From contig NZ_CP017641.1 in the NCBI RefSeq assembly GCF_001983935.1, positions 2,666,001 through 2,730,000 on the forward strand: a stretch of DNA of 64,000 nt, given 5' to 3'. Below the pieces are notes generated by a model. That model saw only the letters and a list, made by a program, of their open reading frames with translations, was not told the DNA's origin and searched no databases. This document shows, in pieces, positions 35,378-54,345 of this stretch (position 1 is its first letter; every line of letters starts with the position of its first letter). The position numbers were made by a program, and so were the translations under genes. The stretch comes from Fuerstiella marisgermanici (GTDB lineage: Bacteria > Planctomycetota > Planctomycetia > Planctomycetales > Planctomycetaceae).

Positions 35378-35809
35378 TTCAAGGTCCGCATCGCGATACG
35401 GACGTCTGGCAGCAATGCACTGCTGGAGGCGTCGTCACGGCACTCATTGGTTGCGAATGGTGCGAGGAAACTCGTACGCCTGGGATCAGCCGAAAGCGAT
35501 ACGTATGAGGCACGAACAGCTGCCCTTCAACGGCCCGCTGAAGTGCCTGCCGATGCAACGTATTGGAAGGATTTCCGCACTTCGATTGACTGAGCTACAG
35601 AACGGAAGCGTAATAGCCCCGGACGCGCGAAGATGCGCGTTGTATCGATTGTTTACCAGGGAAAACCCGTTGACAAAAGTATTCATTCGGGAGAACCGCA
35701 CCAGCAGTTTTCCTGTTTGCGTCACTGAACCTGTCAAGTGACGCAAGATCTTCGATGGGGCTTCGACTGTTCTTCCAGGGCATCAATTCGCGCCCCGGAG
35801 AAAGAAACT

Positions 35810-38800: not shown

Positions 38801-41599
38801 GTGCAATTGGCCCGCGAAGCCTACGATTCAGGTCTTGCTGTCGGTGACGATCAGGTCTGCGGCAATATCATTGATGTTTGGGCTCGAGCCACCAACGGCG
38901 ACCTTCCCGCGGATATCGTGCAGAATGAGCTGAACCGTCCACGAGCTGACGTGCAGGGAAGAAGTCACGTACTCCTTGCGCGGGGCGTGCAATTGATTGC
39001 GGAACGCAAATTTCATGATGCCTCTGAAACCTTTGGTGAAGGAATACGCACCAGTCGTGCGGCGGGTATCACAAACTGCTATACGGCCCCGCTTTACGCG
39101 TGGAAAGCAACGTCGCTGCGGCTTTTTCTGGAAGAAGAATCGCCGGTCATTCGGCGTTCTCGCCAGAAGACGATCTGCGCGCATCGTCGTGCCGCATGGG
39201 TGGCTTTTCTGGTCGCCATCCGATTTCGCGGTGAGCTCCCTCATGCATTGCGTGAGCTGGCCTGGAGCTTCGTGTTCAAAAATCGCGTGCGACGAGCGAT
39301 GTGTCTTTTGAAATGGAGTGTGCGAGCGGCTCAGGCGCAATCCGCAAAATACGAATCGCTGCAGAGCGAATTGATACTGCAGCAGGTTCGCGTCGAACGT
39401 GATTACCCGGATGCTCGGGAGATGCTAAAGAAGGTCGAAGAAGGCTATTCGGCATTCAACAATGAACAATTGCCCGCCAGAGTCCCGACTTCACTGTCTT
39501 TAGTCGACCGGTTTGATTCTCTGCTGGAGTCGGGGCGAAAAATTGCGTCAGCGACGGAGCCGGCAGATATCGTCGCGATGACGATCGAGGCGAGTCAGCA
39601 ACTATTGCGCAGTGACTACTGCCGAGTTGTTTCAATCAGTCCGGATGGCGAAGTCGGAAACATATCAGAATCAGTGCGGCCTTATATGGCCCATTGTTTG
39701 AAGACGGGCGTGGCGGAAGCAGCCGAGGCGCCCAACAAACAATTTCGTTCCTTAGTTGTGTGTCCGATTCTTGTACGAGGTTCGGCCGTCGCCGGGTTGT
39801 GCGTTGGAAACACAGAGGTTCGTGGTTTGTTCGGTGAGAACGAACTGCGCATTATCACGTATATCACCACAATTTGCGGTACGGCGTTGGAAAATGCTGA
39901 AGGCTTTCGCAATCTACGAAGGCTGAATGAAAATCTTGAGAACATCGTGACCGAAAGAACGGCTGTCGTGGAGGCCCGGTCGGCTGAATTGCAGGAAACG
40001 GCTCGCAGCCTGCAACAAACCCAGACTGAACTGGCAGCCGCGCGTGACAAAGCAGAAGTTGCCAACCAGGCGAAGACAGATTTCCTGGCGCACATGAGTC
40101 ACGAGATTCGGACACCTATCGGAGCGGTCCTTGGCTTCACTGAGCTGCTGCTGAATGGCGAGCATCCTTTGCACCCTCAGCAGCTTCAGCATTTGCGACG
40201 CGTTCAGAGCAATGGCGCCCACCTTCTGCAGTTGCTGAATGACTTGCTGGATCTGTCCAAGATTGAAGCTGGTCAACTGACAATTGAAACCGTGTCCTGC
40301 CAGCCATTCACTTTGATATCAGATATTCTCGCCTCCCTGGAAGCAAGAGCGATTGATAAAGGTTTGAAGCTGTCACTCGCGATTAAAGACACGATTCCTG
40401 AGACCATTGCGACAGACCCAACTCGCCTTCGTCAGATCATTACCAACCTTGTGGGCAACGCTATCAAGTTTACGTCTGCTGGCGGTGTCGATTTGTTGAT
40501 TGGCACCGATGTTGATCGCGGCGTGATGCAAATCGAAGTTTGCGACAGTGGTATGGGCATACCGCTGTCAGCTCAGAGAAATGTGTTTGAACCATTCCAG
40601 CAGGCAGACGAAACAGTCAGTCGCAACTTTGGTGGAACCGGATTGGGCCTGCCGATCAGTCGTCGGCTGGCTCGTGCTCTGGGCGGAGACCTCACGGTTG
40701 TCAGTGCACCAGGCGAAGGCAGCACGTTTACCACAACCATCGCCACTGGTCCGCTGGACGACGTCCGCCAACTGACAATAACAGAAGCGGCGGCAGCCAA
40801 GTCTCAATCGGTCGAAAAAAGCGTGGCGACTGTTGACCTCAGCGGAATCCGAATTCTTGTCACCGATGACGTGTTAACGAACCGGGAATTTCTATCGCAT
40901 ATGCTCAGGGCCGCAAACGCCGAAATTGAGACGGCAGAAAACGGACAGATTGCGATCGACGTGTGGAACCGATCCGGCGCCGATCTGATTCTCATGGATA
41001 TGCGAATGCCAGTCATGGACGGTTATACGGCCGTCGAACTGCTGCGTGACCTGGGTGCTAAGGTACCGATTGTTGCATTAACGGCGAACGGGTTGGCCGA
41101 AGACGAAGTTCGTTGTCGCGACGCGGGGTGTTCGGGCTATCTTACAAAACCAGTATCCATGGATGCTTTGTTAACTGAGGTTGCCGAACAGCTTGGCATT
41201 ACTGCAACCATGGAACCGCCTCCAGTCGTTGATGACAGCACCGACAAACGCTCGCCAGTCAGTGGTTCAACCAAACCTGTCAAGGACGCTCCAGTCGCAG
41301 CTGACTTTGCGATTCCTGAAGATCCGTTTTTCCGCGGGTTGGCGTCTCAACTGGTCTCCAAGCTGGTCGAAACTCTGCCAATATCGGGCCATGCACTCGA
41401 CACCCTCGATGCAGAAACAGTGGCTGAGCAGGCTCACTGGATGAAGGGAACTGGCGGCACAGTGGGGTTGCCCGTGATCACAACAATGGGGATCGCTCTG
41501 GAAAACGCCGCAAAAGCCAGAGACTTTGAAACTGCACGGCGCGTGGTCGAACAGCTGAATAGCACGGTTGAGCAACTTCAACGCCGCCTTGTGACTTGA
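35810..41599 (+). CDS. Giant hybrid sensor: pseudokinase-AAA ATPase-TPR-GAF-histidine kinase-receiver-HPt
   Basis: GTG at 35810 has GGAG 9 nt upstream; an in-frame GTG at 35738 is an alternative. Domains in order (residues from 35810): protein-kinase-like (about 10-270), AAA ATPase with Walker A SAPSGIGKS (about 330) and Walker B VLLLDDAQWADD (about 450), TPR-like helices (about 690-1210), GAF (about 1240-1370), coiled coil, histidine kinase (H-box LAHMSHEIRTPIGAV, N-box LRQIITNLVGNAIKF, G-boxes DSGMGIP and GGTGLGLPISR), receiver (ILVTDDV, LILMDMRMPVMDG, LTKPVS) and HPt (EQAHWMKGTGG). The kinase lobe lacks catalytic residues: the HRD loop reads LRYLRPKDIY, the beta-3 Lys is replaced in FIVYEI and no DFG is seen, while GAPE and DLYSLGIVLFE remain. 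So a pseudokinase is inferred. Confidence 0.9.
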   Translation: MTPHLPEFWSRYEPLHEIERTTGYRSLYANSGDTARFIVYEIDRSADVPSAAFYRVMHEVHRLSDIKDDCLLRPLEVENSDEVSLIVCPDANGERLSEVVKSKLSLSAILDITQSLLQVLHSVHDAGLVLRYLRPKDIYVQSSGDSLKAMVGGCPPLLLLECSDTNQLASDTLPYGAPETLGALEYDVRASADLYSLGIVLFECLAGHPPFQGETSHDLLFHHVTTPVPDLCELDPSIPPTLNDIVRRLLQKHPRDRYQSATGALFDIQQVRATLCAEDEICPATPLVLGTKDHRESLIEPAHVGRDTDLKVLKSALRTVSASQSRSVLISAPSGIGKSRVLQETSTYAVAQGFRLLRGQGKNQPGLSPLATMQPAILAATELIRDDAALQTALQGKMQEYASELHAAAPELAVALQLEQPDTRDRALSDRRIAVALATLLGRLSLGGQPIVLLLDDAQWADDLTLAMLDCWQLTDPEQTLLIVSTRPSDDLASRLRNHIQFSAEISLAPLSRQDSDLLLESMAGVLPPEILETVWEMAAGNPFASSAVLRGLVEGSVLTPTDDGWDVDAERLRDIQMSGEAAEVLKERLVRLPVDSRKLLAIGAVLGKEFAIDTVAKLTGLSHQTAIGHLKSPRDLCLIWENEADGVCKFVHDQIREAVLTTLSKEELAGIHLAAGEHIAEAAPESHFQIACHFDAAGCPERALPSALKAAASAQRRHALGIAIQQYEIALRSCKNICTELWFQILSGMGSVLMLSGRYAEAEPMLEAALLHAKTAVDEAEISLKLGELAFKRDDKDRAVARWETALRKLGGKLPPNWLMPFCTLKEIAVQTLHSFIPAGLQRAPKKEATLRDRLICRLYSRLAYGYWYLKGKVPLLFVHLRGMNLAENFAPTAELAQAYSEHAPAMSLIPLRNRGIAYGRRSLEIRTALGDVWGQGQSLHFLAIALYAAGRFEECIEVGSRSVRILDRAGDFWEKHIAQYQVAASLFRVGRLTEAVQLAREAYDSGLAVGDDQVCGNIIDVWARATNGDLPADIVQNELNRPRADVQGRSHVLLARGVQLIAERKFHDASETFGEGIRTSRAAGITNCYTAPLYAWKATSLRLFLEEESPVIRRSRQKTICAHRRAAWVAFLVAIRFRGELPHALRELAWSFVFKNRVRRAMCLLKWSVRAAQAQSAKYESLQSELILQQVRVERDYPDAREMLKKVEEGYSAFNNEQLPARVPTSLSLVDRFDSLLESGRKIASATEPADIVAMTIEASQQLLRSDYCRVVSISPDGEVGNISESVRPYMAHCLKTGVAEAAEAPNKQFRSLVVCPILVRGSAVAGLCVGNTEVRGLFGENELRIITYITTICGTALENAEGFRNLRRLNENLENIVTERTAVVEARSAELQETARSLQQTQTELAAARDKAEVANQAKTDFLAHMSHEIRTPIGAVLGFTELLLNGEHPLHPQQLQHLRRVQSNGAHLLQLLNDLLDLSKIEAGQLTIETVSCQPFTLISDILASLEARAIDKGLKLSLAIKDTIPETIATDPTRLRQIITNLVGNAIKFTSAGGVDLLIGTDVDRGVMQIEVCDSGMGIPLSAQRNVFEPFQQADETVSRNFGGTGLGLPISRRLARALGGDLTVVSAPGEGSTFTTTIATGPLDDVRQLTITEAAAAKSQSVEKSVATVDLSGIRILVTDDVLTNREFLSHMLRAANAEIETAENGQIAIDVWNRSGADLILMDMRMPVMDGYTAVELLRDLGAKVPIVALTANGLAEDEVRCRDAGCSGYLTKPVSMDALLTEVAEQLGITATMEPPPVVDDSTDKRSPVSGSTKPVKDAPVAADFAIPEDPFFRGLASQLVSKLVETLPISGHALDTLDAETVAEQAHWMKGTGGTVGLPVITTMGIALENAAKARDFETARRVVEQLNSTVEQLQRRLVT

Positions 41600-42031
41600 G
41601 CCCGCTTGCGTGCGGGACAAGTACCGCGATGTGCCGTCCCAACTGCGCACAGGATGCGCACATGCACTACATCAGCCTGCGATAAGCGGCGGCAGATCGA
41701 CAGGGCTCGCTGCCTCGATTTCCATGACGATATCCTTGAGCTTCTCAAGAGAAATTTGCCGGTTCGCAGGAATTCCCCCCCCATTGATGTGGAATAACGG
41801 GAAGTCTTTGCGCTGTTGCTCCAGCTTCAGCCGCAAAGTTTTCTGCGCTCTCCTATGTTGATGCGGATGGAGCGTCGTCGACGGCCCTAAGGCGGTCATA
41901 AATCTTCGCGATCGTCGAATTCGGCGGGCACAAAAAGGTCACGTCGGGAAGACCCCCTTTGCGTCTGAACGATCAAGTTTATTCTGAGTCTCAGTTGGCC
42001 CTTCAACTTTTTCAACTCAGGACTTACCACA
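41600..42031. other. Intergenic gap with a possible short minus-strand frame
   Basis: A 75-codon frame on the minus strand (41672-41899) ends with SLEKLKDIVMEIEAASPVDL, which looks protein-like but matches no family I recognise and contains a run of nine G. A remnant or small gene is possible and not called. CCCGC/GCGGG at 41603-41617 is a weak hairpin after the kinase gene. Confidence 0.35.
41984..41994. promoter_or_regulatory. Candidate operator palindrome CTGAG-T-CTCAG
   Basis: A perfect 5-1-5 inverted repeat stands 38 nt before the ATG of the hotdog-methyltransferase gene. Its TGAGTCTCAG half is identical to that at 24112-24121 before the DUF1559 gene. A shared repressor is possible; Fur-type spacing is suggestive only. 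Confidence 0.35.
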
Positions 42032-43426
42032 ATGAAATCAGACACACTCACACTTCCGACACTTTCATGGGAACAGGACTACGATCAGCGAGTTAACCCG
42101 GAACTCATGACAGGACTGCTTCGCAAAGCAATTCCGGTCCTCGACCAATCCGATTGGTACATCGACAAAGTCGAAGAAGGATTCTGCGAATCCGTTCTTC
42201 CGCTAAACAGTCCCACAACAAATCAACATGGGACTCACCAGGCCGCCCTAATTTCGCTGTCAGCGGATTACACAGGTGGACTCGCTTTGGCCACATTGCT
42301 GCGAGGCGTTCCGCTTTCAGGCGTGCACCGGTGTCAGGATGATAATTCGGCATCGCTATGGCTGGCTTCGATGAACGTCAAGTATCGCAGTCCAAGCTCG
42401 GGCCATCTTGTCGGTACATGCCGCATCGACCCGAAGCAGGCCGAAGCGATTCGCAGTCGTTACTTCAGCGGAAACCGAATCCTCGCCACGCTGGAAGTTC
42501 AGTTCCATTCCAACGGTGACCTGGTCGCCATCGCGGAAATGAAATATTTCGCTCAGCCGACTAGTCAGCTTACGCCAGCCGCTGGCAGCAAGAACCGATC
42601 CGCTTTGTTCAGCCACAAGCTTAAGGCTTCGGCCCGCATGATCGCAGGAATTCGGTCTCGAGAATCGGTCAATCCGAGGCTCACGGCCCATTGCCCGCAT
42701 GCCTCAGTGGGTGCTGGTCCGCACGGCGAATTGCTGGCAATGCGGCTGGAAAGTGCACTTCCGCAACTGACCGATATGGTTCTGGCCAGGACGCAGCACA
42801 TTGACGAAGTCCTTCGCGAAGTTGACGGTCTGCAACAGGTGGTCATGCTGGGGGCCGGTCTGGACATGCGACCGATGCGGCATGCGGCAGCAAATCCGGG
42901 GCTCACTTTCTTTGAGATCGACCTTCCCGAGATGATTGCTGAACGTAAGCGAATCGTGGCACAGTTGCCGCAGTCGTTTGATGACCAGCGCGTGCAGCTT
43001 GAGGTCGATTTCCGGTCAGACGATCTTGTCGCAATCCTTGATGAGCATCCTCGCTTCCAACGCGGTGTCCCCACGATGTTCATTTACGAAGGCTGCTCAA
43101 TGTACTTTACCGAACCCGAAAATCAGCACTTGCTGAAGATGGTGAAGGAACTGATGGAGCACCCGCAAAGTTGCTTGTGGGCCGATTTCGTAAGTCGTGA
43201 AGTGGTCACCGGTCGGACAAATGATCGCAGCATTGCCGCGTTTCTTGAGGGCATGGATGAACTCGGCGAAGCATTCATCTTCGGAGTCGAAGACCCAGAC
43301 GCCTGGCTAAAACAAATTGGTTTGGGGCTCGTGGAAACGACTCGCTGCGGCGACTACCTGAATGAATCGGACATGGTGTTCAAGACCTACTCATTCTCCG
43401 TCGCCAAACGCTGGGAAAACTCGTGA
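42032..43426 (+). CDS. Fusion of hotdog thioesterase-like domain and LCMT-type SAM methyltransferase
   Basis: Residues 1 to about 180 resemble a DUF4442/PaaI-type hotdog thioesterase: NQHGTHQAALISLSADYTGG, ASMNVKYRSPSSGHLVGTC and ILATLEVQFHSNGDLVAIAE. Residues about 200-464 are a leucine-carboxyl-methyltransferase-like (PPM1) domain with RTQHID, the SAM-binding VVMLGAGLDMRPMRHAA, FFEIDLPEMIAERKRIV and MFIYEGCSMYFTEPE. LCMT-like bacterial enzymes O-methylate carboxylates or hydroxyls of small metabolites and polyketides. Joining it to an acyl-CoA-type hotdog suggests a product released from, or attached to, an acyl carrier; this is inference. It ends in a strong terminator, so the FadL gene behind it is a separate unit. 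Confidence 0.85.
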   Translation: MKSDTLTLPTLSWEQDYDQRVNPELMTGLLRKAIPVLDQSDWYIDKVEEGFCESVLPLNSPTTNQHGTHQAALISLSADYTGGLALATLLRGVPLSGVHRCQDDNSASLWLASMNVKYRSPSSGHLVGTCRIDPKQAEAIRSRYFSGNRILATLEVQFHSNGDLVAIAEMKYFAQPTSQLTPAAGSKNRSALFSHKLKASARMIAGIRSRESVNPRLTAHCPHASVGAGPHGELLAMRLESALPQLTDMVLARTQHIDEVLREVDGLQQVVMLGAGLDMRPMRHAAANPGLTFFEIDLPEMIAERKRIVAQLPQSFDDQRVQLEVDFRSDDLVAILDEHPRFQRGVPTMFIYEGCSMYFTEPENQHLLKMVKELMEHPQSCLWADFVSREVVTGRTNDRSIAAFLEGMDELGEAFIFGVEDPDAWLKQIGLGLVETTRCGDYLNESDMVFKTYSFSVAKRWENS

Positions 43427-43498
43427 TGACTCACGTCCAGACACCGCTTCCATCTGGTTGACGGTGACACGCGGAACCAGACAGTAAACGTCTCTCTA

Positions 43499-43534
43499 AA
43501 ACAGCGATGGCAACACAGGTTGCCATCGCTGTTT
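43499..43534 (+). terminator. Intrinsic terminator, perfect 16-bp stem
   Basis: AAACAGCGATGGCAAC (43499-43514) and GTTGCCATCGCTGTTT (43519-43534) pair without mismatch around ACAG. The A-rich start and T-rich end allow bidirectional use. It lies 72 nt after the hotdog-methyltransferase stop; the rest of the gap 43427-43819 holds no gene. Confidence 0.8.
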
Positions 43535-43819
43535 CGCTTGACGTCTCCAAGCAAATTCCAGTGCCTCAAGTCGACCGACGTGCGGTGCAGCAAACGTGAA
43601 AAAGGGCGTATCGCTGGTGAGTGCAGCCCATGGTAGGGATACGCTGCAAGGTGGGGGAAAACCTGATGAAAGTGGGCAAGACGCGTTGTCCGAGCTACGA
43701 CCTTGCGAAGATTGATGAGCGGATACGGTATTTCGATTGGCATGACTGTAACGATTCTGACGACGCTTTAGTCAGCAGCAATTACTCACAGCAATGATGT
43801 ACCGCTCTGGATCGCAATA

Positions 43820-45118
43820 ATGAACACCACTTTAAAGTCGGCCGCTTGTGCGATCGTTCTGTGGGGCCTGTTGAATTCGTATGTCAACGCACAGGGAATT
43901 ATCGTGTCTGCGGTGGGGCCCGTAAATCGGTCCATGGGTGGAGCAGGCACTGCGGCTCCGCTGGAATCGATGGGAGCTTTGTTCTCGAATCCCGCCCTTA
44001 TTTCAGCGCTTCCGGAAGACGAATTAAGCATCGGGCTGGCGGGCGTTTTGCCTGTCCTGCAGACCAAATCGTCCATCGCCGGATTTGGTAGCGGCTCCAC
44101 CTCAGCCGAACCCGGGATTACGCCGCTTGTGAATATGGGATGGGTTCATCGCCCGGAAGATTCTGAGGTCACGTACGGAGTCGGCCTGTTTTCGGCGGCC
44201 GGATTTCGAGCAAATTTTCCGGCCAGCGTATCCAACACTGTCTTTACGCCACAGTCGAATAATGCTGGCGTTCCCGGTGGTCTTGGGCAGGTGTATACGG
44301 AAGCCGCCTTCATTCAGTTTATCCCCACCATGGCTTTGAGGGTCAGCGACGGAGTTTCGATTGGCTTCGGCCCGACAGTGACGATCGGAGATCTGATTGT
44401 TGACCCGTTTGTCTTTGATTCGCCCGATGATGCGGACGGCAGCGGTGCACCGCGCTATGCCTCAGGAATCGGAACTCGAACACACTGGGGCGGAGGATTC
44501 CAAACCGGTATCTACTACGAAAACGAGCAGGGGCTGCATCTGGGTGCGACTTTCAAAAGCACACAGTGGATGGAGACATTTTCGTATAACTCGGAAGACG
44601 AACTTGGCCGCCCCCGCACTGTCGAAGCCAAGCTGGATCTGCCGATGATGGTGTCACTTGGCACCGCATGGTCCGGCTGGGACCGCTTTGTGTTTGCAAC
44701 AGACGTTCGCTACTTCGACTACTCAAACACAGACGGTTTCTCTTCAAGCGGCTACGAGCCGGATGGAACGGTTAAGGGGCTCGGCTGGGACAGCGTTTTC
44801 TCAGTTGCCACGGGAGTGCAGTACGCCGCCACCGAAGATCTGTTTTTGCGAATGGGGTACACATTCAACGAAAATCCGATCCCGGACAGCCAGGCGTTCT
44901 TTAACATTGGATCGCCGTTGTACTACCAGCATGAAATTCACGTGGGCGGTTCGTACCGACTTAGCAAACGAGTCTGGATCAACCTGGCGTACACGTATTA
45001 TCTTGAGAACGACATCTCCGGGCCGATTGTCACACCTGCAGGCGCGATTCCAGGTTCGAACGTAACGAATGAAAGTTCCGTTCACATTGCTGATGTCGGA
45101 ATCACCGTTCGGTATTGA
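43820..45118 (+). CDS. FadL/OmpP1/TodX-type outer membrane transporter
   Basis: A signal peptide (MNTTLKSAACAIVLWGLLNS, cleaved before QGI) precedes the FadL hallmark start: RSMGGAGTAAPLESMGALFS and NPALISALPEDELSIGLAG. The plug-like N-terminus is followed by alternating beta strands with ESMGAL-type turns, LHLGATFKSTQWM, and YFDYSNTDG. The C-terminus ends with the aromatic strand VHIADVGITVRY, as expected for a 14-stranded barrel. At 432 aa the length is typical. FadL-type porins pass long-chain fatty acids or aromatic hydrocarbons through the outer membrane. The upstream acyl/methyltransferase fusion may be related by substrate but is not in the same transcript. Confidence 0.93.
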   Translation: MNTTLKSAACAIVLWGLLNSYVNAQGIIVSAVGPVNRSMGGAGTAAPLESMGALFSNPALISALPEDELSIGLAGVLPVLQTKSSIAGFGSGSTSAEPGITPLVNMGWVHRPEDSEVTYGVGLFSAAGFRANFPASVSNTVFTPQSNNAGVPGGLGQVYTEAAFIQFIPTMALRVSDGVSIGFGPTVTIGDLIVDPFVFDSPDDADGSGAPRYASGIGTRTHWGGGFQTGIYYENEQGLHLGATFKSTQWMETFSYNSEDELGRPRTVEAKLDLPMMVSLGTAWSGWDRFVFATDVRYFDYSNTDGFSSSGYEPDGTVKGLGWDSVFSVATGVQYAATEDLFLRMGYTFNENPIPDSQAFFNIGSPLYYQHEIHVGGSYRLSKRVWINLAYTYYLENDISGPIVTPAGAIPGSNVTNESSVHIADVGITVRY

Positions 45119-45273
45119 AAACGTCATCGCTGCTGAAACCGAGCCTCCGCCGATACCGCTCTGCAGTGGATCCCATCACACGCCTGCCATTCATCGCACA
45201 CTTGCAGAAGGCAGTCGGCTCCATCGCCGCAAGTTTGCAGCGCCGCGCGATACCGTTTCCTGTGTCGTGCGAT

Positions 45274-45401
45274 GTTTGGAATTCTGCTGAGTTGTGTCCT
45301 GCAGCCGCTGGGCCATAGAATGAATTCCGAACGGGGCATTCCCGTTCGAGCCAGCCAGAGGACCACCTTGGGGTTGCCGCCCCGGTTCTGTGGCCTTTTT
45401 T
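45274..45401 (+). terminator. Leader with competing hairpins and a terminator before the sulfatase-cytochrome gene
   Basis: The terminator pairs GG-CCAC (45360-45366) with GTGGCC (45390-45395) and GGGG with CCCC (45370-45373/45380-45383), and ends in six T. Just upstream, CGAACGGG (45328-45335) pairs with CCCGTTCG (45341-45348). Its left arm can instead pair as GAATTCCGAAC (45322-45332) with GTTTGGAATTC (45274-45284), 11 bp with one wobble. The T-tract ends 18 nt before the ribosome site of the next gene. It may simply end FadL transcription or act as an attenuator. Confidence 0.5.
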
Positions 45402-45432
45402 ATTGGCCGATTCATCTTAAGGAGCAGTGCTG

Positions 45433-48400
45433 ATGGCAGCGACAATGATGGACACTTCTGTCCGAACCGTTCATCGAGCAGGGTTGCCGCCCCGAATATC
45501 CCGAACGAAAATTGTGCCGCTGTTGTTGAGTGCGTTGGCCGTGTTGGCGTCATCTGCCACACTCCTGACAAACGAAGTGCGTGCCTCGACTTCAGACAAA
45601 TCAGCAGGCCGTCCGAACGTCGTGCTGATCATGACCGACAATCATGGCGCGTGGACACTGGGTTGTTACGGCAACAAAGATATTCGCACGCCGAACATCG
45701 ACAAACTGGCGGAAGAAGGCACGCTGTTTGACAACGCTTTTGCCAGCAATCCGGTATGTTCGCCGACTCGCGCCACCACGTTAACCGGCTTGATTCCGTC
45801 GCAACACGGAGTGCACTGTTTTCTGCGCGGAGGCCGCCTTCAAACCGGCCCGGATGCTCGCAATACGCTGGACGAGTTCACTTCATTACCAGAAGTGCTG
45901 AAGCGCGAGGGCTACCGCTGCGGATTGGTAGGCAAATGGCATCTGGGCAGTAATGCGTCGCCTCAGGAAGGCATGGACGATTACTGGATCACGATGCCCC
46001 ATGGCGGAACGTCCACGTTTTACGATGCGAAGATTATCGAGGACGGCAAACAACGCACGGAGCCGGAATACCTGACGGATTTCTGGACTAAGCATGCGGT
46101 GAAGTTTGTCGAAACCGACGACGACAAACCTTTCTTTTTGTTCCTGGCCTACAACGGCCCGTATTCGCTAAGCCGCCTGCTGCTTCGCGAAGGCCAAAAC
46201 CGTCACGCGGAATTCTATCGCGGCAAAGAACTGCCGTCGTTCCCGCGCGAAACGCCTCATCCCTGGCAGTTACACAACCGCGACTACCAAAACAATCCTG
46301 TGTCGATTCAACGAGTCGCCACGGAAGTCAGCGGCGTGGACGATGGCGTCGGCACGGTGATGGCGGCACTCAAGGCAAACGGCCTGGACGACAACACGAT
46401 CGTGATCTTCATGGCCGATCAGGGTTGGGTCGGAGGCCACGGCGGCTTCTTCGGCATGGGCGACCACACCCGCCCAACCACGGCCGTGGACGGCATGATG
46501 AAGATCCCATTGATCGTGCGACAGCCGGGCAGGATTGCCGCCGGTCAACGCAGCCAGAAACTCGTCGCGAATTACGACATCTACAATTCACTGCTCGATC
46601 ATCTGGGAGTCGACGCGAACAAAGCCGACGACGAACCGGTTTCGCCCGGAAAGAGTTTCGCGGCAGAGTTGCAGCCCAAAGTAGCCATCATCGCTCCGCG
46701 TGATGAGCCGCGCGTTGGGACCACCCAAAAAACATACACCACCACGGCCGGATCTACCGTCCCCTCACAACAAGATCCGCAGTTTGCGAAAGCTGTTCGA
46801 AACGACAACTTCGCTCGGTCCGCCAATTCAACCCCCGCGTCGCCACGTCACGCGGAGCGTGACGGCTACGTGACAACCCGCCTCGAAAAGACTGAGCACC
46901 AGGACGCCATCTTCTACGAATTCGAAACTCTACGTACCATTCGCACGGCTGACTGGAAATACACCGAACGGTTCCCCAATGGGCCTCATGAGCTATACGA
47001 CCTGAAGAACGATCCGCAGGAATTCAATAACCTATATCGCGATGAGCCCGCGGCCATCCAGCAGCAACTCCAAGACCGCCTGCGCACGTTCTTCGCGAAA
47101 TACGCCTCGCCCAAATACGACCTCTACAACGGCGGCGGTTCGCAAACCGTGATCTACGACGGCGTTGAAGAAGAGATCGCTCAGGCAGATCCGGTGGAAC
47201 CGCCCGCACTGCCAGAAGGCTTCAAAGCCAAGGAATTCACTCTGCCCGAAGGCTTCAGTTCAAAGTTGATCGCCGGTCCGCCGCTGGTCAACCACCCAAC
47301 GATGGGCTGCTTCGACGACACCGGTCGGCTGTTTATCTGCGATGGTGCCGGAGCGAACATGTCGGCTGAGGAACTGGAGAAGAATCTTCCCAACGAAATC
47401 AAGATGCTGGAAGATCAGGACGGCGATGGTGTGTTCGACAAGTCGACCGTATTTGCCGACAAGATGACGTTTCCGATGGGCGGCACGTGGCATGACGGAG
47501 CACTCTACGTAGCATCCCCGCCGAACATCTGGCGACTGGAAGACACCACCGGAGACGGCAAGGCCGACAAGCGAGACATCCTTGTCGATAAGTTCGGCTA
47601 CACCGGCAACGCGGCCAGTATTCATGGCTGCTTTAAGCACCCGAGTGGACGAATCTACTGGTGCGACGGCTATCACGGCCACGAATTCAAAGACAAAGAC
47701 GGCAACGTCACCAGCAGTCGAAAGGGCTCGTACATCTTCAGTTGCTGGCCGGATGGCAGCGACGTTCGCATTCACTGTGGCGGCGGCATGGACAACCCGG
47801 TGGAAGTCGACTTCACTGACGAAGGCGACATCATTGGCACCGTGAACATCATGTACACACGGCCGCGCATCGACTGCCTGGTGCACTGGCAATACGGTGG
47901 AGCGTACCCTCACCGCGAAGCCGTTCTGGACGAACTGAAAGTCACGGGCGACTTGCTGGGGCCGATTCACAAATTCGGCCACGTCGCGATTTCCGGAACG
48001 ACTCGCTATCGCAGCGGAGTCATGAATCATCAATGGGGCGGCAACTTCTTCGCCACGGAATTCAATCTCGGCAAAGTTGTGCGAGTCGAATTAGAACCGA
48101 GCGGCAGCACGTTCACGTGCACCGAACGTGAGTTCCTATCCTGCAATAACCGTGACTTCCATCCCACCGACGTGATCGAGGACGCCGACGGAAGTCTGGT
48201 TGTGGTCGACACCGGCGGCTGGTTTTACCGAGGCTGCCCGACGTCTCAGATCGCAAGGCCCGACGTGAAGGGTGGCCTGTACCGCATCGTCCGCGACGGA
48301 ATGACGACTCAGGTGGATCCACGAGGTAATCGTATTGCCTGGGCCGATCGCACGGCAGGAAAGCTCATGCAGGATCTCAAAGACACGCGTCACGCCGTCC

Positions 48401-50313
48401 GCGAGAAAGCCATTCAGGAATGCGTGCGGCGAGGCGACAGCGTGGTGCCGATGTTGGCCTCCACGTTAAAGAACGGCGACATCGTTGCGAGGCAGAATGC
48501 GATTTGGGCATTGTCGAGATTACTCTCCGTCACCGCTTCGGAGACTGCTCAGGCGGCAATCGTTGCGGCGCTGGCTGATCGTGATGCCAGGATTCGACAA
48601 GCGGCTTGTTACGTGCTTTCGGTCATTCCGAACCCAGCCGCCAAAGACGCGCTGGCTGCCCGCCTAAGTGACTCTCACCCGGCTGTCCGCCGGCAGGCCG
48701 CCGTTGCCGCTGGGCGCATCAAGGGTGATGACATGACGTCCGCTCTTTGGGCTCAGGGCGTCTTTCAGTACCCCGGCGACGCGGACCGAGAAGAACAGCA
48801 TGCCCGAATGTACGCTCTGATCGAACAGTCAGATCCCATGGCGATTCAGAAAATGATCGACAGTTCTGATGGGCCGCGACTTGAGTTACTGACGGTGCTG
48901 GCCGAAACCAGTACGCCGTCCGAATCTGCCGTTCAGCAGATCGTAAAAGCCCTGACACTGTTTCAACAATCTGAACACGCCACGAGTCTGTTGTCGCGGG
49001 TTCTGACGCAGACAAAGGTGAACAAGAACGAGGTCCTGCTACAACAGGCTCAACAACAGGTCGCTCAGCAAGTGCCGGTGTGGCTAACACTGAAACCCGA
49101 CCCGGCCGATAATGACGCAACCGATCGCGCACTTCGAGCGATCGAATTTGCGCTGCGGCGATATGGCGACAATGCTCAGATTCGGTCAAGCGTCAACACT
49201 CGACTGTCGGATGCGGATTGCCCGGCTGAATTGAAGCAGTTTCTACTATCGCTCACAGGCGACGTGCCCGCTGTCGCGAAGGTCCCAAAGCTGCAGGAGA
49301 CGATTGTCGCCGCTTTGGAAAGTCACGATTTCGGTGGCGAACAGTTTCAGTTGGCTCTTGATGCGGCAAAGCGAGTCGACCGCCCGGAGATCAAGCAGAC
49401 GTTGGCGAAGATTGCAGCCAGCGAAAACACTCCGGCTCTGATCAAGGCTCGAGCGTTCAGCGCGGCCGCCGGACCGGGGCGAGGCCTGCCCGATGACGCT
49501 TTCTCAGTGCTTAGCCAGATCATGGCGAACAATGGCCCCGATTCTGCGGAAGCCGCAAAGTTGTTGGCGTCGTCCGGACTGACCGCAGCGCAATCGGAAG
49601 TCGTTTCACAATTCCTGAAAGACGCCGGGCCGCAGCAACTGAACGATTTGCTGGCTCTGTTCAGCGGCAGACTGACAACAGAACAGGCGAGCAGCTTTCT
49701 CGACAACGTCGAAAATGCTCGTTCACTTAGCAGCGTTCCCGCCCTCACCATTTCCGAAATCGTGAAGCGGTTTCCGGAAGAACTGCATGATCGAGCGAAC
49801 TCGTTGCTGGACAAAATGCAGGCGGCCGAACAGGCAAAGCTGTTGAAGCTGGATTCGCTGATCGGGCAACTCAAAGACGGCAATGCGGCCCGCGGTCGCG
49901 ACGTCTTCTTCAGCGAAAAGGCGAAGTGCGCCACATGCCATGTTGTTGGAAAGAAAGACAACGGCGAATTGCTGGGTAAGCGAGTCGGTCCGGATTTGAC
50001 CACGATCGGAGCCAGCCGAGCACCAAAAGATTTGCTGGAATCGATTCTGTTTCCGTCGTCAACAATCGTGCGGCAGTACGAACCTTACACGCTGGTGACG
50101 ACCGCAGGTCGCAGTTATTCGGGCCTCGTCATCAAAGACACGGCCGAAGAAATCACGATTCAACAAAGCACGGGCGATCCGGTGACAGTCGCACGCAACG
50201 ACGTCGAAGAACTGGTGCCGTCAACCGTATCCATCATGCCCAAGGGGCTGGATGAAACCCTGACTGCGCAGCAAATTGCCGATCTGGTCGCGTGGCTGCA
50301 AACGCTCAGGTAG
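45433..50313 (+). CDS. Fusion of arylsulfatase with PVC-type heme-binding dehydrogenase/cytochrome c
   Basis: AAGGAG 8 nt upstream fixes the ATG at 45433. A hydrophobic segment (LLLSALAVLASSATLL) serves as signal or anchor. Residues about 60-590 are a sulfatase: NVVLIMTDNHGAWTLGCYGN and NPVCSPTRATTLTG, where the Cys of CSPTR is the formylglycine precursor. From about 590 follow the planctomycete membrane-bound dehydrogenase propeller (LPEGFSSKLIAGPPLVNHPT, DQDGDGVFDKSTVFADKMTF, FHPTDVIEDADGSLVVVDTG), HEAT-like repeats (about 970-1130), a helical linker, and a cytochrome c domain with KCATCHVVG (about 1499) and GPDLTTIGASRAPKDLLESI. At 1626 aa it joins two proteins usually encoded apart. It ends with a strong terminator. 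Confidence 0.92.
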   Translation: MAATMMDTSVRTVHRAGLPPRISRTKIVPLLLSALAVLASSATLLTNEVRASTSDKSAGRPNVVLIMTDNHGAWTLGCYGNKDIRTPNIDKLAEEGTLFDNAFASNPVCSPTRATTLTGLIPSQHGVHCFLRGGRLQTGPDARNTLDEFTSLPEVLKREGYRCGLVGKWHLGSNASPQEGMDDYWITMPHGGTSTFYDAKIIEDGKQRTEPEYLTDFWTKHAVKFVETDDDKPFFLFLAYNGPYSLSRLLLREGQNRHAEFYRGKELPSFPRETPHPWQLHNRDYQNNPVSIQRVATEVSGVDDGVGTVMAALKANGLDDNTIVIFMADQGWVGGHGGFFGMGDHTRPTTAVDGMMKIPLIVRQPGRIAAGQRSQKLVANYDIYNSLLDHLGVDANKADDEPVSPGKSFAAELQPKVAIIAPRDEPRVGTTQKTYTTTAGSTVPSQQDPQFAKAVRNDNFARSANSTPASPRHAERDGYVTTRLEKTEHQDAIFYEFETLRTIRTADWKYTERFPNGPHELYDLKNDPQEFNNLYRDEPAAIQQQLQDRLRTFFAKYASPKYDLYNGGGSQTVIYDGVEEEIAQADPVEPPALPEGFKAKEFTLPEGFSSKLIAGPPLVNHPTMGCFDDTGRLFICDGAGANMSAEELEKNLPNEIKMLEDQDGDGVFDKSTVFADKMTFPMGGTWHDGALYVASPPNIWRLEDTTGDGKADKRDILVDKFGYTGNAASIHGCFKHPSGRIYWCDGYHGHEFKDKDGNVTSSRKGSYIFSCWPDGSDVRIHCGGGMDNPVEVDFTDEGDIIGTVNIMYTRPRIDCLVHWQYGGAYPHREAVLDELKVTGDLLGPIHKFGHVAISGTTRYRSGVMNHQWGGNFFATEFNLGKVVRVELEPSGSTFTCTEREFLSCNNRDFHPTDVIEDADGSLVVVDTGGWFYRGCPTSQIARPDVKGGLYRIVRDGMTTQVDPRGNRIAWADRTAGKLMQDLKDTRHAVREKAIQECVRRGDSVVPMLASTLKNGDIVARQNAIWALSRLLSVTASETAQAAIVAALADRDARIRQAACYVLSVIPNPAAKDALAARLSDSHPAVRRQAAVAAGRIKGDDMTSALWAQGVFQYPGDADREEQHARMYALIEQSDPMAIQKMIDSSDGPRLELLTVLAETSTPSESAVQQIVKALTLFQQSEHATSLLSRVLTQTKVNKNEVLLQQAQQQVAQQVPVWLTLKPDPADNDATDRALRAIEFALRRYGDNAQIRSSVNTRLSDADCPAELKQFLLSLTGDVPAVAKVPKLQETIVAALESHDFGGEQFQLALDAAKRVDRPEIKQTLAKIAASENTPALIKARAFSAAAGPGRGLPDDAFSVLSQIMANNGPDSAEAAKLLASSGLTAAQSEVVSQFLKDAGPQQLNDLLALFSGRLTTEQASSFLDNVENARSLSSVPALTISEIVKRFPEELHDRANSLLDKMQAAEQAKLLKLDSLIGQLKDGNAARGRDVFFSEKAKCATCHVVGKKDNGELLGKRVGPDLTTIGASRAPKDLLESILFPSSTIVRQYEPYTLVTTAGRSYSGLVIKDTAEEITIQQSTGDPVTVARNDVEELVPSTVSIMPKGLDETLTAQQIADLVAWLQTLR

Positions 50314-50341
50314 CTCGCCAAGCCATTCACAACGGACCACC

Positions 50342-50379
50342 AGAAGCCCGATGTCTCTCGAACACCGGGCTTCTTTTTT
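50342..50379 (+). terminator. Intrinsic terminator after the sulfatase-cytochrome gene
   Basis: AGAAGCCCG (50342-50350) and CGGGCTTCT (50366-50374) form a perfect 9-bp stem followed by TTTTTA. It lies 29 nt after the stop. The remaining part of the gap to 50672 has no supportable feature. Confidence 0.85.
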
Positions 50380-50672
50380 ATCCAGAACTCGCGACGCCAA
50401 CCGGGCGTTTCGAATCTGATGCACTGCATAAGGAGTTACCCGACCATGGCAGGTGTCATTCGCTACAGCCGAAATGCGGGTGTCCTCTCCCACGGCGGTG
50501 TTGACCATGTAAGTTCCCGAAATCGGTCGGCGATCCGGAGTTGCGTTTATCGAATTAGGAAGCGAGACTGACCGTTCGGAGATCATCTCACCCAAATATC
50601 GTCGCGCGGCGTGGACTTTAAGAAATATTAGGTCTGCGTTGTTGGCAACCGCCCCACCTTCCGTGCTTGCTC

Positions 50673-52250
50673 ATGGCATCCCTCCCATTACCGGACGACG
50701 GCTACCAAACGTTCCAGGCTCCGCCCATCGAACTCACCGATTGGGTCAGTCAGGCAGAATGTGCTCTAGCGCTGACCACGGTTTGCGGGCGAGTACTGAC
50801 GATAAACGGGCCGCTTGCCAGACTGATTCCACACACAGTCGCGGGGCCTGTGACTGAACCGGTTTGTGTTTCTTCGCTACTGCAGAACCGCTGTGGTGTG
50901 CGTAACACTCACTCCATTCTGGAATCGTTCAACGGCCGGTGCACCAACGCCTGCGTCGCCAAACGTTTTGAGCTTTCTGGTCACGACGACATTCTATTTT
51001 CGGTGATCGTTTTTCCACAGGTGGTTGGCGGCACGGTGGAATACCTGGTCTGGCAGTTCGAAGACATTCGCCACGCTCAGCAGTTGCAGGACTACGAAGC
51101 TCACACCGAAAAGATGAACGTCATTTCGCGTCTTGCGGGCGGAATGGCTCACGAATTTAATAACCTGCTGACCGCCATCCTCGGTAACCTGGAACTGATT
51201 CGCACTCGCCCTGCTGAGACCATTGAGGCGGTGCTGACGAACATTGATGCCGCCGAATCTGCGTCGTTGCGAGCCACTCGGTTAATCGGCGAACTGCGAC
51301 GTTTTTCCAGCCGCAATCCGCCTCATCAGGAAGCCCAGGCGTTGGCTCCGATCGTCAGACGCGTGCACCGCAAACTCGCTGGCACGGCACCGTCAAACAT
51401 CAAAGTTCTGTCGTCGATCAAAGGTGACCAACAATCGTTGCGAGCCCTCTTCAACGCCGACGCCCTTATCGACGCGTTGCTTAAGCTCGGGCTTAACGCC
51501 GTCGAAGCCATCGGTACGGATCGCGGCTGCATTGAAATCGGCGTGTGCGAATCTCAGTGCACGTCCAGCCACAAGCCAGTCGTGCAGATAGACGTCAACG
51601 ACACAGGACACGGCATGTCTCTGGCGACTCAGGCACGCGCGTTTGAGCCATTTTTTTCCACCAAACAAAGCTCATGCGCCCCCGGACTCGGCATGGCGCT
51701 GGCTTATAGTCTTATCGAAGAAATGGGCGGAGCAATTCGCATCGTTGGCAGCAGCGAAGAAGGTTCGCGGATCCGAGTCACTCTGCCCCTGGCACCATCG
51801 TCGCCAGAATTAACGCCAATTTCCAACGCCGCCGTGACCGCACAGCCAGACGCGAACGGTGGGCGTTCCGAAGTTGCGGCCAACCGGGCACTGACGGTGG
51901 CATTAGTCGATGATGACGCCGATGTTCGCAGTGTTGGGCGTGGATTATTGCAACACCGCGGTCACAATGTGACCACGTTTCTGTCCGGCGCCGATTTGCT
52001 GGTCGCGATGGACGAAGGCGCAACGTTTGACCTGATCGTGCTGGACAATTCTATGCCCGTGCTTAGTGGTCAAGCGACCTATGTACGGATCAGGCAGATC
52101 GACGAAGATGTTCCCGTGGTGATTAGCAGCGGCCGAATTCCGGACCTCGCCACATTCGCTCCGCCCACCATGGCTGCACCAAACGGGTTCCTGGCAAAAC
52201 CATTCACTCTGACAGACGTGACCGCATTGCTGAAAGACTGCTTCCACTAA
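50673..52250 (+). CDS. Hybrid sensor histidine kinase with C-terminal receiver
   Basis: The ATG at 50673 gives 525 aa. The N-terminal 150 residues look PAS-like (TTVCGRVLTINGPLARLIPH, VEYLVWQFEDIR). The kinase core has H-box GGMAHEFNNLLTAILGNLEL (His about 160), N-box LLKLGLNAVEAIG, G1 VNDTGHGMS and G2 GLGMALAYSLIEEMGGAI. The receiver (about 405-525) has VALVDDDADV, the phospho-acceptor LIVLDNSMPVLSG, a VISSGR switch and FLAKPFT. No membrane segment is seen, so it is a soluble NtrB/PAS-type hybrid kinase. No DNA-binding regulator is adjacent. It is monocistronic. Confidence 0.92.
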   Translation: MASLPLPDDGYQTFQAPPIELTDWVSQAECALALTTVCGRVLTINGPLARLIPHTVAGPVTEPVCVSSLLQNRCGVRNTHSILESFNGRCTNACVAKRFELSGHDDILFSVIVFPQVVGGTVEYLVWQFEDIRHAQQLQDYEAHTEKMNVISRLAGGMAHEFNNLLTAILGNLELIRTRPAETIEAVLTNIDAAESASLRATRLIGELRRFSSRNPPHQEAQALAPIVRRVHRKLAGTAPSNIKVLSSIKGDQQSLRALFNADALIDALLKLGLNAVEAIGTDRGCIEIGVCESQCTSSHKPVVQIDVNDTGHGMSLATQARAFEPFFSTKQSSCAPGLGMALAYSLIEEMGGAIRIVGSSEEGSRIRVTLPLAPSSPELTPISNAAVTAQPDANGGRSEVAANRALTVALVDDDADVRSVGRGLLQHRGHNVTTFLSGADLLVAMDEGATFDLIVLDNSMPVLSGQATYVRIRQIDEDVPVVISSGRIPDLATFAPPTMAAPNGFLAKPFTLTDVTALLKDCFH

Positions 52251-52312
52251 CAACGGTGCGACTCGCCGCCAGGTCGCACGGTGTTCCTTCGCCGTTTCGA
52301 AAGCGCAACTCC

Positions 52313-53206
52313 CTAATCGGGAAGACCGGCGTTGTCCGAAAACTTCGGTGGTGTGTCAGAGCCGTCCTTTTTGTAAAAGCGAGTCAGGTCGATTCCGCCT
52401 TTGACTTCCATTTCGGCGATCTTCAATCGCTGTTCAATCTTTGACAGCCGTGCTTCCAGAAATGGTGACAGCCGTTCGTCGATCAGTTTCTTCGACAGCG
52501 GTACCTGAGGATAATTGAGCTGACGCTGCAGTGCGGAAAAGAAGTACAGTGGATCGCGGCCAATATTGGCTTTTGCGATCCGTCCATCCTGCTCACCGAA
52601 CAACGCCTCCGGTTCGTCGCCCGTGTTTTGGTCGTCGTTTTTTTGAGCGGCCGTTTGCTGACTCTTTCGCCGCGTGCGAAAATTCTCCGACGCGCGATAG
52701 ACAAGTTCAGACAGTTCGGCGACGCCCAACTGATTGTGCAGGCTGCGAATCCAGCGACTCCAACGTTCGTCGTACAGCGGGTCGGCTGCAATCGCACGCA
52801 AGCCATCAGCAAAGCCCAGGCGGTTGCGAGTGACGCATTCGAACTGATACACAAACAGGCCTCGCCGCGACGCTTCCCCGGCACGATATTTGGCTTCGCG
52901 TTCCAGAATCTCCAAAGCGGTCAACTGTTCGAACTTCGAAACTTCGTCTTCGGCGCGAGCCACCACAAACGTTTGGAACGCGGTAAAATAGTGCGGCAAC
53001 CGCGCCATCGCGTCGCTGATCTTGCCTGCGTGCAAAATCTCGGCGCGCATGAAATCTACGGCCATCGGCAGCCGGGTGGTTGCGAGGATCTCTTCGTGAA
53101 CGGTCTTCAGGATGTCCTGCGAAGGCGTGTTCTGCTCCAAACGCTCGCGATACACACGAAAGAAGTATTCCTGTTCGATGTACTCTTCGCGCGGAAGTGT
53201 GCTCAT
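52313..53206 (-). CDS. Conserved hypothetical protein in an operon with a DUF1499 protein
   Basis: The ATG at 53206 (MSTLPREEYIEQEYFFRVYR) is supported by AGGAAC upstream; the frame continues upstream only as antisense of the neighbour. The protein is 297 aa, helical, rich in charged residues, with EEYIEQEYFFRVYRERLE, RAEILHAGKISDAMARLPHY and FVVARAEDEVSKFEQLTAL. This resembles planctomycete proteins of unknown function often found beside DUF1499. No membrane segment or catalytic motif is visible. Its ATG overlaps the stop of the upstream DUF1499 gene by 4 nt, so the two are translated together. It reads away from rsfS. Confidence 0.72.
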   Translation of the reverse strand: MSTLPREEYIEQEYFFRVYRERLEQNTPSQDILKTVHEEILATTRLPMAVDFMRAEILHAGKISDAMARLPHYFTAFQTFVVARAEDEVSKFEQLTALEILEREAKYRAGEASRRGLFVYQFECVTRNRLGFADGLRAIAADPLYDERWSRWIRSLHNQLGVAELSELVYRASENFRTRRKSQQTAAQKNDDQNTGDEPEALFGEQDGRIAKANIGRDPLYFFSALQRQLNYPQVPLSKKLIDERLSPFLEARLSKIEQRLKIAEMEVKGGIDLTRFYKKDGSDTPPKFSDNAGLPD

Positions 53207-53730
53207 ATTGTTGTTGTTCCTGCCTGAACCATCCGTTCCCGAATTCGCTCCATCCGATCTCGATTGACGCCCATATCCGAATGCCCAACCCGCGACGCCG
53301 ATCGGAAGTGGATTTGGTCGCTCTCCGGGTCGATCAGAAATTCGACGTCGTCCACAAACCGAAACACGGCGCTGCGAAATTCGGCTCGCAAATACAGGTC
53401 CCGCTGTTCCACAATGCGGCTGCGCGGCATCGATTCGACGATTTCCCGCAGTTTGGACAACGCACCTTCCGGCGAACCATCGTACGCCAGCGGTGTCATC
53501 CTTTGGTCCGGGTTCTGTGTCTGAGTCGACACGCAATTGGGCGTATCGGGCAATTCGGCCAGCTTTCCGTCGTGTACGCCAAGGCTTTTGGGGGGCGACG
53601 CGGTCAGGCTAAGCAGGAACACGCCGGCAACTCCCACAGCCAAAACGCCGCCCGCAATTAGAAGGTAGATCTGCATTCGGTTAAGTCCCGCCGGACGTGG
53701 CAAATTTGGTGTGGCCGCTCGCCTTGCCAT
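53203..53730 (-). CDS. DUF1499 domain membrane-anchored protein
   Basis: The ATG at 53730 (MARRAATPNLPRPAG) is preferred with GGAAG upstream; an ATG at 53802 is an alternative. One transmembrane segment (IYLLIAGGVLAVGVAGVFLL) anchors a DUF1499 domain: PNCVSTQTQNPDQRMTPLAY, SKLREIVESMPRSRIVEQRD, LRAEFRSAVFRFVDDVEFLI and FRSASRVGHSDMGVNRDRME. That pattern is diagnostic of the family, which is widespread in bacteria and plastids but without a proven function. At 175 aa it is usual. It is translationally coupled to the downstream 52313 gene and divergent from rsfS, with only about 100 bp between. Confidence 0.87.
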   Translation of the reverse strand: MARRAATPNLPRPAGLNRMQIYLLIAGGVLAVGVAGVFLLSLTASPPKSLGVHDGKLAELPDTPNCVSTQTQNPDQRMTPLAYDGSPEGALSKLREIVESMPRSRIVEQRDLYLRAEFRSAVFRFVDDVEFLIDPESDQIHFRSASRVGHSDMGVNRDRMERIRERMVQAGTTTI

Positions 53731-53832
53731 GCGGCTTCCGTTATTCTCACCAGCAATCTCATTCGTCGCGATCGACTTCGACCGACTTCGTCCGGTTTCC
53801 ATTGTTCTCTCGAAAAAAGTTGTCTCAGTTCC

Positions 53833-54345
53833 ATGTCCGATCCGTCCGCCTCTTCCGAACAACCCAACGACAGCTCAGACGCGGATTCGCCTGTTGAAAA
53901 CGGTCAGCCGATGGCTGAAAGTGCTGAACCGGATTTCGATCCCACGTTCGACACCGAAACCGTCACGCAGCCCCGAGACGAGCAACTGTATCAGCGCAGC
54001 CTCGCGAATGCTCTGATCGCAGCACGCTGTGCTGACGAAATGCGGGCTCGCGACATTGTGGTGCTGGATATGACCAAGATCGCTTCCATCGTCGACTTTT
54101 TCGTCATCGGCACGGGCACCAGCCGTCGTCAGATGCACGCGATTGCAGATGAAGTCAATCGTAAGCTCAAAGGTGAAGAAGGCAATACGCGACTGAATAT
54201 CGAAGGCTACCGGACAGAAGGAAACTGGATTTTGATGGACTTCGGCGACGTCGTCCTGCACGTTTTCACGGAAGAAGGCCGCCAACTATACGACCTCGAA
54301 AACCTAAAAGCCGACGCCGAACGAGTCGACTGGCAGAACCTGTAA
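53833..54345 (+). CDS. rsfS: Ribosome silencing factor RsfS
   Basis: This is the RsfS/IojAP family, which binds ribosomal protein uL14 and blocks subunit joining in starved cells. The conserved core starts about residue 55: SLANALIAARCADEMRARDI, VVLDMTKIASIVDFFVIGTG, TSRRQMHAIADEVNRKL, then GYRTEGNWILMDFGDVVLHV and FTEEGRQLYDLENLKADAER. An extra acidic, Ser-rich N-terminal extension (about 50 residues) makes it 170 aa, longer than the usual 105-120. The usual neighbour nadD is not here. It is the first gene of a plus-strand run and is divergent from the DUF1499 operon. Confidence 0.95.
   Translation: MSDPSASSEQPNDSSDADSPVENGQPMAESAEPDFDPTFDTETVTQPRDEQLYQRSLANALIAARCADEMRARDIVVLDMTKIASIVDFFVIGTGTSRRQMHAIADEVNRKLKGEEGNTRLNIEGYRTEGNWILMDFGDVVLHVFTEEGRQLYDLENLKADAERVDWQNL

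Follow-up and report, generated by a model that had tools for sequence, protein, structure and literature searches.

We analysed a 64,000-nucleotide stretch of the Fuerstiella marisgermanici genome, an assembly of one 8.92 Mb contig (NZ_CP017641.1, positions 2,666,001 to 2,730,000; hereafter, the window), in which one forward-strand gene joins a sulfatase to a protein made of a propeller, HEAT repeats and a cytochrome c domain (Table 1). Its open reading frame (ORF) contains no internal stop and encodes 1628 amino acids (aa) from a GTG start, or 1626 aa from the ATG at 45433, from which residues are numbered throughout. The Pfam Sulfatase family (PF00884) scored 162.2 bits (cut-off 25) and was followed by SGSH_C, DUF7133 (aa 599-926), HEAT_2 (aa 1043-1106) and Cytochrom_C (aa 1486-1535). 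Two NCBIfam models passed their curated cut-offs, i.e., TIGR02604 at aa 607-955 (167.1 bits, cut-off 122.2) and TIGR02603 at aa 1483-1624 (100.1 bits, cut-off 68.15). The formylglycine motif CSPTR occupies aa 109-113 and the haem-binding motif CATCH aa 1499-1503. A sequence-only reading of this DNA had described a CSPTR sulfatase and a propeller-HEAT-cytochrome c unit with CATCH in a single frame, and both this architecture and its coordinates are borne out by the ORF, Pfam and NCBIfam results.

Table 1 Features of the fusion gene, in window positions (REP, repetitive extragenic palindromic; REPIN, REP doublet forming a hairpin; MITE, miniature inverted-repeat transposable element; PQQ, pyrroloquinoline quinone)
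Feature	Position	Strand	Basis
Fusion gene: S1 sulfatase, DUF7133/TIGR02604 propeller, HEAT repeats and TIGR02603 cytochrome c	45427..50313	+	Single ORF, domain matches, same frame in relatives
N-terminal export signal region, hydrophobic core aa 27-39	45433..45588	+	Hydropathy alone, extent inferred
Sulfatase catalytic domain, aa 61-393; formylglycine motif CSPTR at 45757-45771	45613..46611	+	Pfam, fold search
GTAG-REP doublet (REPIN/MITE-like), 189 bp or 63 in-frame codons, predicted disordered	46681..46869	+	
SGSH_C sulfatase C-terminal subdomain, aa 500-552	46930..47088	+	Pfam, 25/25 members
Joint of the two halves, about aa 566-600, conserved, without a signal-like segment	47128..47232	+	
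Six-bladed DUF7133/TIGR02604 propeller, aa 599-955, predicted fold nearest to PQQ sugar dehydrogenases	47227..48297	+	
HEAT-repeat helical linker, fast evolving	48298..49878	+	
TIGR02603 monohaem cytochrome c domain, aa 1483-1624; CATCH at 49927-49941, Met1602 at 50236-50238	49879..50304	+	

The same fused frame was present in several of 58 related genomes searched. A query spanning the joint (aa 491-800) was then compared with 397 genomes of the class, with five candidates scored per genome, and matched 256 of them at E ≤ 1e-45. At least 15 of the 397 genomes encode the fusion; they are the 15 best rows and, among the matches listed, the only ones that start within the sulfatase part, as from rank 16 on the matches begin at or shortly before the propeller. 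Fourteen of these rows are frames of 1521-1775 aa and the fifteenth (G001) ends at a contig edge. The 15 genomes are spread over three families of the class, and seven are single-contig assemblies (G000, G011, G038, G263, G325, G336 and G360; G000 is the source genome). A scan of named genomes with the sulfatase subfamily, in which the best 80 of 240 relatives were kept, gave 30 loci fused to a propeller-cytochrome part, 49 with the sulfatase alone and one cut by a contig end (L093). The 30 fused loci overlap partly with the genomes of the class search, and several are cut inside the dehydrogenase part. Seven of them are titled Verrucomicrobia, Verrucomicrobiia, Verrucomicrobiales or Verrucomicrobiota, and the others include Pan216, TBK1r, K23_9, Stieleria sedimenti, Rhodopirellula sp. 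and Planctomicrobium sp.; the fusion thus occurs in two phyla by record title and is no peculiarity of the source genome. A propeller-cytochrome match was found in the flank (≤6 kb) of just 2 of the 49 unfused sulfatase loci, so the separate genes are not merely neighbours.

Conservation was profiled in an aligned set comprising the window and 24 named loci with full-length or near-full-length fused frames (n = 25; L100 lacks its last residues at a contig end, and L097 and L109 are open upstream of the start). All 25 proteins matched Sulfatase, SGSH_C, DUF7133 and HEAT_2, and all matched both TIGR02604 and TIGR02603 at E ≤ 0.001. CSPTR and the three fixed residues of CxxCH were invariant, as were the stretches DNHG, GKWH, ADQG and GDHTR, which we take to have active-site roles in the sulfatase; their DN and DQ pairs presumably belong to its metal site. 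At the joint (35 codons), the nonsynonymous rate (dN) was below the synonymous rate (dS) in all seven pairs compared, with a dN/dS of about 0.10-0.24 that is rough given the few codons and high dS, and this pattern indicates that the joint is under purifying selection. The HEAT linker (48313-49872) evolves much faster than the propeller (dN about 0.74 vs 0.09, window to L091 and L110).

The joint differs from the fusion N-termini in hydropathy, with the best 13-residue mean ranging from 0.48 to 1.56 at the joints of all 25 fusions and from 1.86 to 2.89 at their N-termini. Separate dehydrogenases were compared where their match starts within the first 60 query residues, and all 34 rows examined (three duplicates among them) carry an N-terminal segment with a hydropathy of 1.8-3.1, unlike the fused loci L072 and L073 (0.29). 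The separate members examined of the PVC-type (Planctomycetes-Verrucomicrobia-Chlamydiae-type) propeller-HEAT-cytochrome proteins (TIGR02604/DUF7133 plus TIGR02603) share the fusion's domain set above the curated cut-offs; they start with a hydrophobic segment of their own, which the fusion, opening with an entire sulfatase, lacks. The protein is probably exported as one chain, as the sequence-only reading had assumed, judging by the hydropathy of the signal-like segment at its N-terminus and of the joint, where there is none. Haem c is attached in the periplasm, which the oxidative half would reach only within the fused chain because the joint lacks a signal-like segment.

The sequence-only reading had also considered that a stop codon or frameshift at the joint might reveal two genes, and had pointed to other genomes as the place to look for the same architecture. 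Both halves are indeed common as separate genes and related separate dehydrogenases exist, so two genes could in principle have been read as one through a stop codon lost or missed in the assembly. Recurrence in the class genomes (seven of them single-contig) and in 30 of the 80 named loci, across two phyla, together with the selection on the joint and its lack of a signal-like segment, makes this hardly credible. A lost stop codon was rejected, as relatives carry the same fused frame (at least 15 of the 397 class genomes and 24 named loci). The fusion is a real, recurring and established protein family and no sequencing error. No paper on a sulfatase fused to a TIGR02604/TIGR02603 protein was recognised in a search of open-licence PMC text; the constituent families are known, and the fusion itself was not found described in the literature searched.

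The sulfatase half has both the CSPTR activation motif and the PF00884 match, and its fold search was headed by S1 carbohydrate sulfatases (e.g., 7oqd and 5g2v). The best sequence and fold matches are the S1 enzymes 7stt, 5g2v, 7oqd and 6prm, which share its fold and CSPTR; these solved chains measure about 450-530 aa, whereas the fusion continues C-terminally into the dehydrogenase and cytochrome. The source genome has 11 matches to the formylglycine-generating enzyme (FGE) family, whose genes could supply the formylglycine. A sulfatase on one chain with another carbohydrate-active enzyme is also found, by title, in the S1_25 module of the GH78 rhamnosidase FA22250 (6hr5). There the partner is a glycoside hydrolase, whereas here it would be a haem-carrying oxidoreductase.

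A structure model of aa 592-1626 (predicted local distance difference test score, pLDDT, 77) was searched with Foldseek. The best match was the dihaem cytochrome c Kustd1711, many HEAT-repeat proteins were among the matches, and the PQQ domain of a pyranose dehydrogenase (6jt5) and a PQQ sugar dehydrogenase (3a9g) ranked 4th and 45th. A second structural alignment, which re-aligned Foldseek's own matches only, placed sugar or glucose dehydrogenases or AA12 enzymes, by title, in all 16 best propeller rows (6jt5, 3a9g, AA12, sGDH and Asd; Z 22.8-25.9 over 268-314 residues at 12-19% identity). Other propellers reached Z ≤21.9, a modest gap. In the model, the propeller is thus closest in fold to PQQ sugar dehydrogenases of the six-bladed quinoprotein type, and the second half is predicted, by fold only, to be a dehydrogenase.

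The cytochrome half aligns by sequence with Kustd1711 over 141 residues. Met1602, invariant in the 25 fusions, stands opposite M292, which is altered in the 7zs1 and 7zs2 entries, and is presumed to be the axial haem ligand. Kustd1711 (7zs0) is a dihaem chain of 316 residues, whereas in the fusion a single haem domain closes a multi-domain enzyme. The nearest propeller fold is that of the AA12 quinohaemoprotein pyranose dehydrogenase CcPDH (6jt5), which likewise has a dehydrogenase and a cytochrome on one chain. Electrons are reported to pass from its PQQ propeller to the haem of the same chain (PMC6881789). The parts described there are a b-type cytochrome and a carbohydrate-binding module with no sulfatase (PMC6881789), and CcPDH has no sequence-level match to the fusion.

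We infer the substrate, the cofactor and the coupling of desulfation to oxidation from these similarities. At roughly even odds (probability about 0.5), the fusion would be one exported, probably periplasmic, bifunctional chain in which a sulfatase and a quinohaemoprotein-like dehydrogenase desulfate a glycan and deliver the electrons of its oxidation to the protein's own haem. The S1 sulfatase, with Cys109 converted to formylglycine, would take a sulfate ester off a carbohydrate-like substrate, as its motif and fold suggest. The six-bladed propeller, with its PQQ-sugar-dehydrogenase fold, would then oxidise the substrate, most simply at the newly exposed hydroxyl or at another hydroxyl of the same sugar. 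Electrons may pass to the C-terminal haem c, given its conserved haem motif and presumed ligand, and from there to soluble cytochromes or the respiratory chain. This order of desulfation, oxidation and haem loading is drawn by analogy with CcPDH, in which electrons go from propeller to haem on one chain; a functional coupling of the two halves is plausible.

A number of observations weigh against this reading, the first group of which concerns the oxidative chemistry. The propeller sequence profile retrieved no PQQ enzyme from the PDB (four chance-level rows, E 0.011-0.023), Pfam GSDH was touched by just 3 of the 25 aligned fusions, and a PqqC search of the source genome gave no match, with control genomes equally silent. 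The propeller might accordingly bind or act like a lactonase without being a dehydrogenase, leaving the cytochrome to serve another partner; many non-oxidising propellers do lie at Z 21-22. Set against this are the titles of the 16 best propeller rows, the propeller's presence beside the cytochrome in all 25 aligned fusions, and, in keeping with sugar oxidation, the fusion of a 3-keto-disaccharide hydrolase domain to a DUF7133 protein of the source genome. We consider a non-oxidising propeller unlikely.

The second group concerns the tie between the halves. Within the genus the fusion is patchy, occurring in only four of eight genomes (G000, G002, G007 and G001, the last cut by a contig end). 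A midpoint-rooted sulfatase tree of 84 rows, built by a quick search, placed all 31 fused rows inside one starred clade of 33, whose two other members are the contig-cut L093 and the long-branched, unfused L158, and such a tree fits one old fusion origin. The L158 sulfatase (6001-7065) lacks CSPTR and nevertheless lies inside the fused clade. The dehydrogenase tree comprised 59 rows, with 18 left out (nine same-genome or same-sequence duplicates and nine distant or long-branch rows); its L072 and L073 are truncated loci of fused genes, and L015 is a second contig piece of the L098 genome. Six separate dehydrogenases (G013, G021, G026, G152, G179 and G307) are nested among the planctomycete fusions in this tree, the fused rows as one clade were rejected (p = 2e-30, approximately unbiased test), and seven changes are needed. 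The Verrucomicrobiota branch has no firm placement. On these trees, the fusion most likely arose once, long ago, and some lineages then lost the sulfatase part on several occasions; fusion events on more than one occasion would be a less likely alternative. Because dehydrogenases of the fused clade exist without a sulfatase and the fusion is patchy in the genus, the two halves can work apart.

The genomic surroundings point the same way. There are 94 sulfatase and 34 DUF7133 matches in the source genome, in agreement with the earlier statement that planctomycetes have many separate genes of each half, and the fusion is the only sulfatase match there in an open frame longer than 1,000 aa. For co-location, rows of one gene were joined and the weakest rows dropped (DUF7133 at 5721300 and 7866409; sulfatase at 2438652 and 5176262; PF06439 at 3425773, 7574027, 3422220 and 3414880), which reduced the 94 sulfatase rows to 89 positions, the 34 DUF7133 rows to 28 genes (27 without the window) and 44 rows of PF06439, the 3-keto-disaccharide hydrolase domain, to 33. 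Only 2 of the 27 DUF7133 genes lay within 6 kb of a sulfatase gene (rotation mean 3.0), showing no enrichment in the source genome. Flanking ORFs of the window (≥110 aa, 36001-54000) had no match in the flanks (up to about 6 kb) of the other 24 fused loci, among which each of the shared flanking families listed connects just three or four.

It is therefore conceivable that the fusion is real and its halves are not catalytically coupled, the sulfatase giving export and a shared location to a dehydrogenase with an unrelated substrate. Dehydrogenases of the same clade without a sulfatase, families that are unclustered in the source genome and the lack of neighbours common to the window and other fusions all speak for this. 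Against it stand the recurrence of the fusion in two phyla, with the key residues of both halves preserved, and a report that sulfatase genes often adjoin PSCyt genes (not equated with TIGR02603 here) in epilimnion freshwater Verrucomicrobia and glycoside hydrolase genes in the others (PMC5615132). On balance, we regard uncoupled halves as less probable than the coupled, bifunctional chain and as a more serious alternative than a non-oxidising propeller.

A narrower proposal can be offered tentatively, namely that this single chain desulfates algal or mucin-like glycans and then oxidises them as a quinohaemoprotein-type sugar dehydrogenase, with electrons entering respiration through its own haem. 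If true, Planctomycetota and Verrucomicrobiota would have an oxidative route for breaking down glycans in the periplasm, and its ketosugar product would then be cleaved by the abundant 3-keto-disaccharide hydrolases. Ten of the 33 genes for such hydrolases lie within 6 kb of a sulfatase in the source genome, more than expected by chance (rotation mean 3.6, reached by 4 of 2000 rotations). DUF7133 genes gave an unconvincing result, as 3 of 27, including a single fused gene, lay near such a hydrolase against a rotation mean of 1.2, and 238 of 2000 rotations attained that number. In another planctomycete, xanthan has been suggested as a target of the 3-keto-disaccharide hydrolase family (DUF1080; PMC5673643). 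With about 89 sulfatase and 28 DUF7133 genes in the source genome and the propeller still named a domain of unknown function, the recurring fusion hints, directly from sequence, at the possible substrates of such cytochromes and offers a single protein in which desulfation-dependent haem reduction could be measured.

Two further fused genes of the source genome involve the same families. A 739-aa frame (G000:C1:6689331-6691325, + strand) matches both a sulfatase and a 3-keto-disaccharide hydrolase; it is a second kind of sulfatase fusion and one of the ten close pairs counted above. At L173 (58-4911; G000:C1 about 3353557-3358410), a propeller-HEAT-cytochrome protein (DUF7133) is fused to PF06439, with a related palindromic doublet in frame directly after the propeller.

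The window protein alone among the 25 aligned fusions has about 63 extra residues (aa 417-479). The sequence-only reading identified the sulfatase domain correctly and passed over the repeat inside it. The inserted DNA opens with GTAG, has inverted ends and folds much better than its shuffles (z −4.4; none of 200 as good). Its ends recur across the genome, with 20 cores at ≤1 mismatch vs none for a control pattern. The 15 elements tabulated comprise eight inverted pairs of 172-189 bp, two related pairs (110 and 169 bp) and five one-end-only or short fragments, and doublet copies lie on G000:C1 near 2058112, 2063153, 3048427, 3583932, 5748583, 6643192 and 6671423. We identify the insert as a GTAG-REP doublet of the kind described in PMC3733652, where such repeats are reported inside genes and in Planctomycetes. 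It shares the GTAG tag, inverted pair, many copies and in-frame site with the GTAG REP doublets reported there in genes and with Rickettsia palindromic elements, and its roughly 63 residues lie within the 43-82 given for repeat clusters of Thauera and R. conorii (PMC3733652). No linked RAYT transposase gene was identified for the doublets of the source genome; judged by coordinates, all nine Y1_Tnp matches lie away from the REP cores, the closest at about 8.5 kb.

In the source genome, the in-frame doublet enlarged the sulfatase loop at a later time. The loop varies in length among relatives and the insert is predicted to be disordered (pLDDT about 27-31). Sulfatase dN/dS was about 0.07-0.08 in pairs with the window, where dS is near saturation, vs about 0.06 between the relatives L091 and L110; because it is not clearly raised, the insertion looks tolerated. 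The absence of the 63 codons from the 24 other aligned fusions might otherwise suggest that the insertion inactivated the sulfatase half in this genome, with the oxidative half alone still working. Given a loop that is length-variable and predicted disordered, active-site motifs that are intact and a dN/dS like that of the relatives, we think such a loss very improbable.

Similar insertions were seen elsewhere in the source genome. An HRQ1/MrfA-like DEAD helicase (L172, 1205-3865; G000:C1:3583207-3585864) carries an in-frame REP doublet of about 63 residues near aa 582-644, a segment that is much shorter in four of five aligned genus relatives and moderately shorter in the fifth (L176). The fusion and this helicase each have a doublet translated in frame at a place where the segment of the relatives is missing or shorter. 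A 2216-aa protein (L171, 792-7442; G000:C1 about 2058291-2064941) matches polysaccharide deacetylase, neutral ceramidase, DUF7133, HEAT and cytochrome c; one REP doublet separates the deacetylase from the ceramidase, and a second lies just past the 3' end of the gene.

A promoter and terminator scan found one and seven sites, respectively, vs shuffle means of 2.0 and 6.8, nothing above chance. Upstream in the window, positions 35738-41599 encode a 1953-aa hybrid kinase with protein kinase, AAA_16, TPR, histidine kinase, receiver and Hpt domains.

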